Source of the DNA: Calidithermus chliarophilus DSM 9957
Lineage (GTDB): Bacteria > Deinococcota > Deinococci > Deinococcales > Thermaceae
Direction of reading: 5' to 3'
Assembly (NCBI RefSeq): GCF_000430045.1
Contig: NZ_KE387023.1
Coordinates: 1,353,384-1,397,282, forward strand
DNA: 43,899 nucleotides
Shown: one piece after another, positions 20,557-24,127 of the stretch
Position numbering within the stretch: position 1 is the stretch's first letter
How the letters are laid out: every line of letters starts with the position of its first letter
The notes under the pieces: generated by a model
What the model saw: only the letters and a program-made list of their open reading frames with translations
Database searches by the model: none
Told to the model about the DNA's origin: nothing
Translations under genes and position numbers: made by a program

Positions 20557-20688
20557 ACTGCTCCTTACGTGCCGAGCGATCGCCCGCCGGGCGAGGCTCC
20601 ATCCGGGTGACGGGGTCCTGCATTGCCTTGGGGGCTACCCCAGTGGCCCAGATGCCTCAGCCTAGCACGCTCTCATCTGGCGTGTCTA
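20557..20688 (-). promoter_or_regulatory. cspA-type promoter and structured 5' leader
   Basis: TAGACA (RC of 20683-20688) and TAGGCT (RC of 20659-20664) are separated by 18 nt on the minus strand; the -35 overlaps the dnaJ stop codon. The predicted leader carries a TCGCCC-GCC-GGGCGA hairpin near 20580-20595. Long structured leaders commonly give cold-shock genes temperature-dependent translation; that function is inferred. Confidence 0.5.
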
Positions 20689-21759
20689 TCCTTTGAAAAC
20701 CCGCTTCAGCTTGTCCCAAAAGCCCTCCGGGGCGACCTCCTCGCCGGTCTCCTGGGCGAACTCGCGCAGGAGCTGGCGGGCGCGGTCGGAGAGGTTGCGC
20801 GGCACGGCAATCTCGGTGACGACCTGGAGGTTGCCGCGGTGGCGCCGCCCGGCGTGGGGCAGGCCCTTGCCCTCCATCTCGAACACCTCGCCGTGCTCGG
20901 TGCCGGGGGGGATGTCGAGGGGGATGGGGCCCTCGAGCCCCGGCACCTCCACCTTGGTGCCCAGCGCCGCCTGGGCCAGCCCCAGCTTGAGGCGGTAGAC
21001 GAGGTGGGGTCCCTCGCGCTCGAGGTGGGGGTGGGGGGCGAGGCGGGGCCGCACGAAGAGGTCGCCGGGCCCGCCCGGCCCCAGGTTGCCCATGCCCGAC
21101 ACCCGCAGGAGCTGGTTCTCGTCGATGCCTGCGGGCATCTGCACCTTGATGTGCTCCTCGCGCCGCACCCGGCCCTGGCCCTTGCAGGTGGGGCAGGTCT
21201 CGCTCATGGTGTAACCCCGGCCGCGGCAGGCCGCGCAGGGGGCCTGGGTCATCACGTTGCCGAAGATGGTGCGCTGCACCTGCTCGACCACGCCCCGCCC
21301 GTGGCAGTTCCTGCAGGGCTCGCGCTTGCCGCCCTGGCCCGCGCAGGCCTCGCAGGTCACCAGCCGCTGGTAGTTCAGCTCCTTCTCGGCACCGTGCAGC
21401 ACGTCGATGAGCTCGAGCTCGACGGTGGCCTCGAGGTCCTCCCCGCGGGGGGCCCGTCCCGGCCCGCCCGGGGAGCGGAAGCCGAAGACCTGCTCGAAGA
21501 GGTCGAACACGTCGCCGAACCCGCCGGGGAAGCCGCCCATCTGGGGGGCCTCGGTGCCGTAACGGTCGTAGTTGGCCCGCTTTTCGGGGTCGGAGAGCAC
21601 CGAGTAGGCCTCGTTGATGGCCTTGAACTTTTCCTCCGCCTCCTTGTTCCCCGGGTTCTTGTCCGGGTGGTATTGCAGGGCCAGCTTCCGGTAAGCCTTC
21701 TTGATCTCGTCCGGAGTGGCCTCACGGCTCACGCCCAAGGTTGCGTAATAGTCCTTCAT
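20686..21759 (-). CDS. dnaJ: DnaJ chaperone with zinc finger
   Basis: A 357-residue type I DnaJ. The J-domain (1-68) has HPD at 31-33, followed by a short G/F region, four CxxCxGxG repeats ([32 protein letters not shown]) and the C-terminal substrate-binding domains. It stimulates DnaK ATPase and hands over unfolded clients. Only five residues separate the first two zinc motifs, against about nine in E. coli DnaJ, so the finger is compact. No dnaK or grpE is adjacent. TAGACT eight bases before the ATG is inside an inverted repeat. Confidence 0.92.
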
Positions 21760-21815: not shown

Positions 21816-22688
21816 TCAGGCCTCCGGCTGGGGGAGAGCCCAGGCCGGCTGCCGCCAGCCGATGCGGCCGCGTAGCCGTGCGGTGTCGACCTGCGGCAGG
21901 TGGGCCTCGACGAGCTCGAGCACCTCCGCGACCAGGCGCTCGAGCTCCCGCGCCCCGGCGGCCGGGTCCGCGCCGACCAAGCCCTCCAGCCGCTCGGCCA
22001 GGCCGCCGGGCTTGTGGCGCAGCCGCTCGATGAACTTGCGCATGCGCTTGAACTGGAAGGTCGAGTAGTACACCCGGTTGACCCCGGCCAGCACCCCCAG
22101 CAGGTTCTGGGCGGCCTCGAGCAGGGTCTGCTGCTGCCACAGCCAGGCGTCGCGGGGGGCGAAGTACTCCTGCATCCCCCACAGCGGGAAGAACTGCAGG
22201 TGCTTGCGCACCATGGCCTCGGCCAGGGCCGCGGGGTAGTCGGCCAGCCGGGCCTTCCACCCCTCGATGAGCGCCTCGCCGTGCAGGGCCACCCCCTCTT
22301 CCAGGCCCGAGAGCGCCTTCTGCAGGGTGGGCTCGAGGTCGAGCCGCTCGAGCACGTCGTCCAGGGTCTTCTCCCAGCGCCCCACCGTAGTGTGCACGAT
22401 CTGTACCTGCACCCCCCCGGCGTTGTAGGCCTCGACGACCGCGCCCTCCGCGCGGCTGTCGTTCACCCACAGCCGCTCGCCGCCCCCGTTCCGCCGCCGG
22501 GCCTCGGCCAGGGCCTCCTCGGTGGGCAGGGCGGCGTAGTAGAGGATGAGGTCGAGGTCGGAGCGGAAGTCGGCCTCCCCGGCGGCCGCCGAGCCTGCCA
22601 GCAGCATGGCGCGGCAGTCGGGGTGCGGGGTGTAGACGCGGGCGCTCTGCTGGGCGAGCGCCCTCAGGTAGCGGCTGGCCTCGGTCAT
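21816..22688 (-). CDS. Nucleotidyltransferase-fold protein with helical C-terminal domain
   Basis: A 290-residue protein. The N-terminal domain has the nucleotidyltransferase motif GS(32-33) followed by DLDL (D44, D46), as in aminoglycoside nucleotidyltransferases. Residues about 150-275 are helical, with YYSTFQFKRMRKFIERL, reminiscent of DUF4037/KNTase C-terminal bundles. It may nucleotidylate a small molecule or protein; the substrate is unknown. CACACT lies six bases before the ATG. It is separated from dnaJ by 56 bp on the same strand. Confidence 0.75.
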   Translation of the reverse strand: MTEASRYLRALAQQSARVYTPHPDCRAMLLAGSAAAGEADFRSDLDLILYYAALPTEEALAEARRRNGGGERLWVNDSRAEGAVVEAYNAGGVQVQIVHTTVGRWEKTLDDVLERLDLEPTLQKALSGLEEGVALHGEALIEGWKARLADYPAALAEAMVRKHLQFFPLWGMQEYFAPRDAWLWQQQTLLEAAQNLLGVLAGVNRVYYSTFQFKRMRKFIERLRHKPGGLAERLEGLVGADPAAGARELERLVAEVLELVEAHLPQVDTARLRGRIGWRQPAWALPQPEA

Positions 22689-22788: not shown

Positions 22789-22817
22789 TTTACACATCTC
22801 ACTACCGCTGCTATAGT
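22789..22817 (+). promoter_or_regulatory. Sigma70-type promoter of the aminotransferase leader
   Basis: TTTACA at 22789-22794, a 17-nt spacer and TATAGT at 22812-22817. Each hexamer differs from consensus at one position. Transcription would begin near 22824, leaving a leader of about 180 nt before the ATG at 23006. Confidence 0.75.
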
Positions 22818-22823
22818 CGGAGG

Positions 22824-23005
22824 CAGATGCGACCCTCCGCCCGAGCTATCCTGTAACGGCGCTCATGCTTCGCTGCATGAGGCCGTCGGGATTTGCCCAG
22901 CGGGGGGTTTTGCTATGCCCGCGCCGAGCGCAGACCGAAGGTGATAGCAGTGAAGCGTAAGCCCCTACAGCCCAGGCTCGAGGCGGCGAGTCCTCGGAGG
23001 AAACC
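22824..23005 (+). ncRNA. Structured 5' leader, candidate cis-regulatory RNA
   Basis: The leader folds into a long stacked hairpin: CCCGA (22840-22844) with TCGGG (22886-22890), CGGC (22857-22860) with GCCG (22882-22885), and CTCATGC (22862-22868) with GCATGAG (22875-22881) around TTCGCT. The internal bulge GCTATC (22845-22850) is exactly complementary to GATAGC (22943-22948), a possible long-range or pseudoknot pairing; a second GCTAT at 22912-22916 competes for the same partner. TCCT-CGG-AGGA (22991-23001) would hide the ribosome-binding site. No known riboswitch consensus was recognised. A 22-codon GTG frame from 22951 overlapping the start is an alternative leader-peptide explanation. Confidence 0.55.
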
Positions 23006-24127
23006 ATGGTCCTGCTGACCCCCGGCCCCACCCCCATCCACCCCCTGGTCCAGGCGGCGCTCGCCAAGCCGATGCGCGGCCACCTCGACCCCGAGACCCT
23101 CGCCACCAACCGGCGCATCCGCGGCTACCTCGAGGCCCTCTTCGGCGCCGGGGAGGGGGCCCTGCTCGCGGCCATGCCGGGCTCGGGCAGCCTGGGGATG
23201 GAGGCGGGCCTGACCAACCTGGCCTCGCAGGGCGACGCCGTGCTGCTGCTGGTCAACGGCACCTTCGGCGAGCGCATGGTGGAGATCGCCCACGCCTACG
23301 GGATGCGCTACACCGTGCTGCGGGCCGAGCCCGGACAGCCCGTCGACCCCGAGGCCGTGCGCCGGGCCCTCGCCGAGCGCCGCTACCAACTCGTCACGCT
23401 GGTGCACGGCGAGACCAGCACCGGGGTGATCAACCCCGCCGCCGAGATCGCGGCCCTGGTGCGCGAGCACGGGGCTTACTTCATGCTCGACGCGGTGACC
23501 ACCGCGGGCATGATGCCCCTCTCCATGACCGCCATGGGCGTGGACTACGCCTTCACCGGCAGCCAGAAGTGCCTCTCGGCCCCGCCCGGGCTGGCCCCCT
23601 TCGCCCTCTCCCGGCGCGGCCGGGAGCGGCTGGGCAAGGCCCACGTGCCGGGCTGGTACTCCGACCTGGCGCGCGTGGCGGTCTACTGGGAGCAGGAGGG
23701 CTACTTCTGCACCTCCCCGGTGCTGCTGCACTTCGCCCTCGAGGAGGCCCTGCGCCTCGCGCTGGAGGAGGGCCTGGAGAAGCGCTACCAGCGGGCCAAG
23801 CGCCTGTACGGCCAGGTGCTGGGGCTGCTCGAGGAGCTCGGCTTCCGCGCCTACGCCGCCCCCGAGGCCCGCCTGCACACCGTCCTCACCGTGCGCCCCC
23901 CTGAAGGCTTCAGCGAGGCCGACCTCCGCAAGGGCCTCTACCAGCGCGGCGTCTCGGTGGCCGGGGGCATCGGCCCCACCGCCGGCCAGGTGCTGCGCCT
24001 GGGCCTCATGGGCGAGAGCGCCCGCGAGGAGCACTACCGCGTCTTCTTCCGCGCCCTGGGCGAGGTCATGGGCAAGAACGGCCTGGAGGAGGCCTTCCTC
24101 GAGCGCGCCCAGCCAGCAGCGGTGTAA
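23006..24127 (+). CDS. Class V aminotransferase (alanine/serine-glyoxylate type)
   Basis: A 373-residue PLP enzyme of the AGXT/serine-pyruvate aminotransferase group. LLTPGPTPIHP at the N-terminus, GSGSLGMEAGLTNL for phosphate binding, HGETSTG (134-140), LDAVTTAG (D162 pairs with the PLP ring nitrogen) and TGSQKCL with the Schiff-base lysine K188 are present. Members interconvert glyoxylate, serine, alanine and pyruvate, or take part in serine or phosphonate metabolism; the exact substrate pair cannot be fixed. The GGAGGA ribosome-binding site is inside a small hairpin at the end of a long leader, so expression is probably controlled at the RNA level. Confidence 0.85.
   Translation: MVLLTPGPTPIHPLVQAALAKPMRGHLDPETLATNRRIRGYLEALFGAGEGALLAAMPGSGSLGMEAGLTNLASQGDAVLLLVNGTFGERMVEIAHAYGMRYTVLRAEPGQPVDPEAVRRALAERRYQLVTLVHGETSTGVINPAAEIAALVREHGAYFMLDAVTTAGMMPLSMTAMGVDYAFTGSQKCLSAPPGLAPFALSRRGRERLGKAHVPGWYSDLARVAVYWEQEGYFCTSPVLLHFALEEALRLALEEGLEKRYQRAKRLYGQVLGLLEELGFRAYAAPEARLHTVLTVRPPEGFSEADLRKGLYQRGVSVAGGIGPTAGQVLRLGLMGESAREEHYRVFFRALGEVMGKNGLEEAFLERAQPAAV

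Follow-up and report, generated by a model that had tools for sequence, protein, structure and literature searches.

Leader and reading frame upstream of the aminotransferase gene

The gene at 23006-24127 (+ strand) of the window, by which we mean the whole stretch of 43,899 nucleotides analysed here, encodes a class V aminotransferase of the alanine-glyoxylate aminotransferase-like type. Among solved structures, the closest to it are 2yri/2yrr, which carry the annotation aminotransferase class V, and 1vjo, an alanine--glyoxylate aminotransferase. When compared with the NCBIfam equivalog models, the enzyme stayed under every cut-off. A literature search found no paper on TTHA0173, which we take to be the locus tag for 2yri/2yrr, and no function assigned to the 2yri/2yrr family. 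A dnaJ-like gene is located beside the aminotransferase gene (20686-21759, - strand) and is directly divergent from it in Calidithermus roseus and Meiothermus. In the window, a 290-aa ORF (21816-22688) without a match in NCBIfam lies between the two genes.

The promoter, which the original prediction had described as good, was confirmed at 22789-22817 (+ strand, as are all features below): a -35 element TTTACA and an extended -10 element TATAGT, separated by 17 nt, score 10/12 against the consensus, with 0.0 expected in shuffled sequences. Direct translation of the following sequence gave a predicted ORF of ten codons at 22827-22856 (ATG CGA CCC TCC GCC CGA GCT ATC CTG TAA), encoding MRPSARAIL* (hereafter the uORF). 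The uORF lies within the first ~90 nt of the leader, and its ATG stands nine nucleotides past the end of the -10 element. A similar arrangement was found in the relatives, where the distance from the end of the -10 element to the uORF start is 8 nt in 40 of the 59 leaders with a clear promoter, and where a Shine-Dalgarno (SD)-like sequence precedes only 2 of 80 uORFs. Near-leaderless starts are a common mode of expression in Deinococcota (PMC12340547), and the spacing from promoter to uORF, together with the near-absence of SD sequences, fits this mode.

The uORF contains the codon pair CGA-GCT (Arg-Ala) at 22842-22847, which is invariant and conserved in frame, and whose GCT (22845-22847) we propose to be the control codon. 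Both codons are rare in the six ORFs of the window that were counted (CGA, 1 of 150 Arg codons; GCT, 3 of 212 Ala codons). Genes for tRNA-Ala(GGC), tRNA-Ala(TGC) and tRNA-Arg(ACG) are present.

Folding of the leader showed that the uORF is also part of a long stem. The 5' arm of the outer helix P1 (GACCCTCCGC, 22831-22840) corresponds to codons 2-5 of the uORF, and its 3' arm (GCGGGGGGTT, 22900-22909) runs into a U-run at 22908-22911 that resembles the end of an intrinsic terminator. Inside P1, the helix P1b pairs ATCCTG (22848-22853) with CGGGAT (22887-22892), and the hairpin P2 (22856-22886), directly 3' of the uORF stop, consists of ACGGC/GCCGT (22856-22860/22882-22886) and CTCATGC/GCATGAG (22862-22868/22875-22881) with a bulged G and a 6-nt loop. 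The stacked hairpin that had been predicted near 22840-22890 is thus real, its three helices being those of P1b and P2 at 22848-22892. The original description of a structured leader holds to this extent, but it overlooked the uORF, the pairing of P1 and the U-run. The whole leader folds only moderately more strongly than shuffled sequences (z -2.05).

The U-run has 4 U in the window, 5 in C. roseus and more in most Meiothermus. The stem abuts the U-run in most leaders; the run is short in the window, and in part of Thermus it is displaced from the hairpin. The 5' arm of P1 lies within the uORF in Thermaceae, in family f4 (G058) and in family f3 of our comparison. We also noted that the U-run is often followed at once by ATGC (10 tallied leaders, e.g. 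L231, L232 and L250 before alaS and L101-L103 in f3). The remaining segment up to the SD and ATG of the aminotransferase gene (22912-23005) is a spacer found only in the window genome and C. roseus, and is outside the conserved element. It carries a second mini-ORF, MPAPSADRR* (22915-22944), 3' of the U-run, with a GTG-started counterpart VLTPCSDRR* in C. roseus. This mini-ORF may be a chance occurrence.

Conservation of the frame and of the pairing

The nearest relative in the comparison is Calidithermus roseus NBRC 110900. A DNA search showed that in other Thermaceae the element sits directly upstream of the same aminotransferase gene. In the upstream regions of 77 aminotransferase orthologues of the phylum, most of which are leaders related by descent, CGAGCT or CGAGCG occurred 71 times in the frame of a tiny ORF and once in each of the other two frames; a tiny ORF was counted when, in frame with the motif, a start codon lay no more than 36 nt and a stop codon no more than 24 nt away. 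For the same motif in all compared DNA the rates were 7, 2 and 2% per frame, and these rates are conservative because their pool contains the leaders themselves. The pattern is present in families f1, f3, f4 and f5. The uORFs encode 39 different peptides with unrelated N-termini, e.g. MLLTARA*, MKPLHPARATL* and MRRSDARALGLR*, all of which have R-A near the end. They are 7-15 residues long, mostly 7-12, and terminate 0-4 codons past the Ala; the residue after R-A is T, S, I, R, L or F, or there is a stop. The CGA codon is invariant in the motif-bearing aminotransferase leaders. That the wobble bases of CGA-GCT are invariant as well points to an additional constraint at the codon or RNA level, which counts against the attenuation proposed below.

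Some Meiothermus leaders (G018/L037, G019/L050, G007/L040, G014/L039) carry an insertion in the uORF region. In the uORFs broken by the insertion, a new in-frame start codon is found downstream of it, just before CGA-GCT; in G018 the regained start and the stop codon of the broken ORF overlap (ATGA). Upstream of aminotransferase relatives outside Deinococcota (Chloroflexi, Acidobacteria, Actinomycetes MAGs and others) the leader was absent, and one Anaerolineales upstream region carries a CGAGCT mini-ORF of a different shape. Two relatives of ~48% identity without the leader (L142 and L147) come from MAGs labelled Propionibacteriaceae and Actinomycetes, for which transfer or mis-binning is possible.

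The pairing was analyzed in 48 leaders aligned to a model made from nine of them. Paired cells amounted to 93.6%, compared with 78.4% in shuffles, and two-sided changes numbered 216, compared with 68 in shuffles, a value reached in 0 of 500 shuffles. Two-sided changes were found in 22 of the 29 base pairs overall, including 9 of 10 in P1 and all 11 in P2 (helices 4-6 of the test; P1b is helix 3), and shifting the pairing partners abolished the signal. Since this alignment is fitted to the structure, we added a test of the unaligned P1 arms. Arms of the same leader paired at a mean of -15.3 kcal/mol, whereas permuted arms gave -11.2 +/- 0.4 kcal/mol, the lowest of 5000 permutations being -12.75. 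The covariation is strong, and the original prediction was right in that the leader is a structured cis-regulatory element, conserved and absent from Rfam. That the hairpin is a plain terminator or a structured 5' UTR without regulatory function appears most improbable: the window hairpin does fold like a strong terminator, and a whole-leader z of about -2 would suit such a reading, but it leaves unexplained the position between promoter and gene in several families, the conserved uORF, the covariation and the copy before alaS described below.

The original prediction had seen in the leader a possible riboswitch with switching GCTATC/GATAGC pairings and a sequestered SD sequence; a metabolite aptamer of this design is not supported. 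The segments GCTATC (22845-22850), GATAGC (22943-22948) and the competing GCTAT (22912-22916) do exist, but their pairing is at the level of chance (5 perfect 6-nt complementary pairs in the leader, 4.8 in shuffles) and is not conserved. C. roseus has GATTGC, and the other relatives examined lack the segment or have unrelated sequence after the U-run, so the pairing is impossible in other genera. The hairpin at 22991-23001, which had been thought to hide the SD sequence, has at most about 3 bp, and the other genera have an exposed SD just past the U-run. SD sequestration was rejected as not conserved.

The scan with Rfam covariance models, which had been proposed as a check, found no family at the gathering threshold. 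In a permissive scan of the leader, the best sub-threshold match was S6-S18-Chlorobi (E 0.006; 26.4 of 47.4 bits); a ribosomal protein leader of this kind was rejected, as the score is below gathering and the downstream gene encodes an aminotransferase. A SAH-like match, AACGGCGCUCA, had an E value of 1.9. The T-box model gave no match in the leader, either at the gathering threshold or with E values up to 10.

It could still be argued that the internal loop with CGAGCU, invariant between covarying helices in Thermaceae, is the ligand pocket of a metabolite riboswitch; indeed, the GC of GCT is also paired in the fold within the family (48/48 and 46/48 leaders). We regard this as very unlikely. 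The invariant CGAGCT corresponds to two codons of the uORF. Its frame, with start and stop codons, is kept in four families, among them Trueperaceae, which lack a P1 derived from the uORF. The sequences of P1 and P2 vary freely, and the leader matches no known aptamer family in Rfam.

A second target and the proposed attenuation

A genome-scan model was built from the aminotransferase leaders only. In the 4.7-Mb genome of the window, its second-best site (E 7e-8) was directly before alaS, the gene for alanyl-tRNA synthetase, which passes the NCBIfam alaS cut-off; the leader peptide at this site is MKPLNPARATR*. Across 50 family genomes, the 63 matches at E <= 0.01 comprised 48 before the aminotransferase gene, 13 before alaS and 2 marginal others. 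Both Calidithermus and both g2 genomes carry a CGA-GCT uORF before alaS, as do several Meiothermus, one f3 genome (MKHTARA*) and, probably, one f5 genome; most alaS genes of the phylum are without it. Several alaS leaders have Gln or Lys in place of the Arg of the motif, or no such residue, and keep or multiply the Ala: MRASASAAS* (four Ala), MTVLLPTQAA*, MLTCSTIKAAI*, MLIYSTTQAAI* and MKPSSFAQATR*. Since these leaders drop the Arg and yet keep the Ala, Ala is the common denominator, and alanyl-tRNA charging is therefore the natural signal. The original prediction had named alanine among the possible ligands, but that alaS is the second target speaks for the charging of tRNA-Ala as the signal, and not for a free ligand.

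This observation also bears on the possibility that the R-A dipeptide or the rare CGA causes a programmed arrest or slow decoding that senses a metabolite or the general state of translation. The arrest motifs of SecM (RAGP) and ApdP (RAPP) contain R-A, which is a lead only, and CGA is both rare in the window genes and invariant in the motif-bearing aminotransferase leaders. The loss of Arg from several alaS leaders that retain Ala, however, argues against it, as does the shortness of the peptides, mostly 7-12 residues with an end 0-4 codons past the Ala; nor would a general sensor predict alaS as the second target. An arrest peptide of the SecM/ApdP type was rejected in view of this length and of the variable residue, or stop, after R-A. 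We consider an arrest-based mechanism quite unlikely.

The uORF with its conserved frame, the covariation, the distance from promoter to ATG and the restriction of the element to aminotransferase and alaS genes are established by the present comparison. The uORF lies between promoter and gene, with frame, start and stop conserved, and its Ala codon, often a single one, is cognate to both alaS and an alanine-glyoxylate-type aminotransferase. We consider it quite likely that the leader acts as a ribosome-mediated transcription attenuator and that its signal is the charging of tRNA-Ala.

The attenuation could proceed as follows. Judging from the position of the -10 element, transcription would start ~2-3 nt ahead of the ATG, and the ribosome would therefore load on an almost leaderless ORF, whose codons 2-5 would double as the 5' strand of the P1 terminator, with the 3' strand abutting the U-run. 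With Ala-tRNA in good supply, the ribosome would complete the 10-codon ORF and be released, P2, P1b and P1 would form, and transcription would end before the gene, presumably at the U-run. When charged tRNA-Ala is scarce, the ribosome would stall with GCT in the A site and cover the 5' arm of P1, so that no terminator could form and the aminotransferase would be expressed, and likewise alaS in those genomes where alaS carries the element. Control in this direction is what we infer from the arrangement. The mutually exclusive states of the original prediction would thus be real in a different sense: they are better explained by a ribosome on the uORF competing with the P1 terminator than by an aptamer. 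Since a ribosome at the stop codon would also cover part of P1, the decision on termination would depend on timing. Constrained folding with a ribosome footprint at the Ala codon abolished the native P1 in leaders of f1, f3 and f4 and took ~20-30 kcal/mol from their folding energy.

Trueperaceae (f5) differ in that their terminator is a local hairpin apart from the uORF, which the modelled stalled ribosome leaves intact. In the leaders L089, L088 and L087, P2 and the terminator hairpin GACC..GGTC-UUUUU both form whatever the position of the ribosome. A search for a Trueperaceae antiterminator found no co-evolving pairing beyond P2 and the terminator, the best other pairing having p 0.02 among 12 tests. 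This architecture is a weak point of the attenuation model, as are the many leaders with one control codon and the weak U-run of the window.

The same uORF and the same signal might act mainly on translation, with P1 hindering 30S loading and the stalled ribosome opening P1. The SD sequence stands ~5-15 nt past P1 in Meiothermus and Thermus, and in several Thermus leaders the stem is not followed at once by a U-run, both of which would suit such control. On the other hand, ~90 nt separate P1 from the downstream SD in Calidithermus, the stem runs directly into a U-run in Meiothermus, f3 and alaS leaders, and the separate hairpins and U-runs of Trueperaceae are well upstream of the start codon. 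Mainly translational control seems unlikely to us, and transcription attenuation remains the preferred mechanism.

Because its control is shared with alaS, the analysis suggests that the aminotransferase helps to supply alanine; if the attenuator is indeed as proposed, such sharing implies this role for the class V enzyme. Since alanine dehydrogenase is present nearly everywhere in the phylum, the aminotransferase is probably not the only source of alanine. For the same reason, the distribution of the dehydrogenase was uninformative as to whether it complements the aminotransferase. We lean towards the fuller proposal of a phylum-wide alanyl-tRNA attenuator with a single control codon, in which a leaderless ORF of 7-12 codons forms half of the terminator and links alaS to an alanine-supplying aminotransferase.

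For an aminotransferase family with solved structures (2yri/2yrr), this would provide a physiological role that can be tested. The leader would also represent a very small natural sensor of tRNA charging, in which a single control codon on a near-leaderless mRNA can suffice, and Thermus genetics and in vitro transcription-translation exist for such organisms. The case is also a caution that what looks like an invariant RNA motif in a structured leader may be a pair of codons.

Comparison with known attenuators

Ribosome-mediated attenuation itself is a known kind of control. The leader shares with the classical attenuators (trp, his, leu, ilv, phe, thr) a short ORF with cognate codons, a hairpin with a U-run, and a biosynthetic or aminoacyl-tRNA synthetase gene downstream. 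The classical systems usually have several regulatory codons and a separate antiterminator hairpin, whereas the Deinococcota leader often has one codon and apparently masks the 5' arm of the terminator directly. Most leaders here have one to three Ala codons, and many have just one, while classical attenuators have two or more regulatory codons; theory favours several, as a high regulatory fraction confers sensitivity (PMC1183508).

Other systems resemble the leader in part. As in E. coli pyrBI, where the leader ribosome directly blocks the terminator, a translating leader ribosome would prevent termination, but pyrBI senses UTP via RNA polymerase pausing and not tRNA charging. The tRNA-Ala T-box leaders of Firmicutes alaS respond to the signal proposed here, tRNA-Ala charging, and have the same target; they differ in binding the tRNA directly, through conserved specifier and T-box sequences and with no leader ORF. 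SAM/SAH, glycine and other riboswitches are likewise structured leaders of amino-acid genes, and none of them reaches its gathering score here.

The nearest precedent is AlaL of Streptomyces lividans TK24 (MNVIGRNIFATARATSSPVAAA*), a leader peptide encoded upstream of alaS for which alanine-dependent attenuation was proposed, as a type not described before (PMC8079986); our literature search found no alanine attenuator besides it. In both systems a putatively alanine-dependent leader peptide precedes alaS. AlaL, however, has 22 residues with 6 Ala and is known from RNA-seq in a single species, with no aminotransferase target, whereas the Deinococcota leader peptides have 7-15 residues, mostly with 1-3 Ala, occur phylum-wide before two target genes and, in Thermaceae and relatives, are encoded by an ORF that shares sequence with the terminator. 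What is new is that the system occurs in Deinococcota and is conserved throughout the phylum, that an aminotransferase gene is among its targets, and that its near-leaderless sensor ORF is fused to the stem of the terminator.
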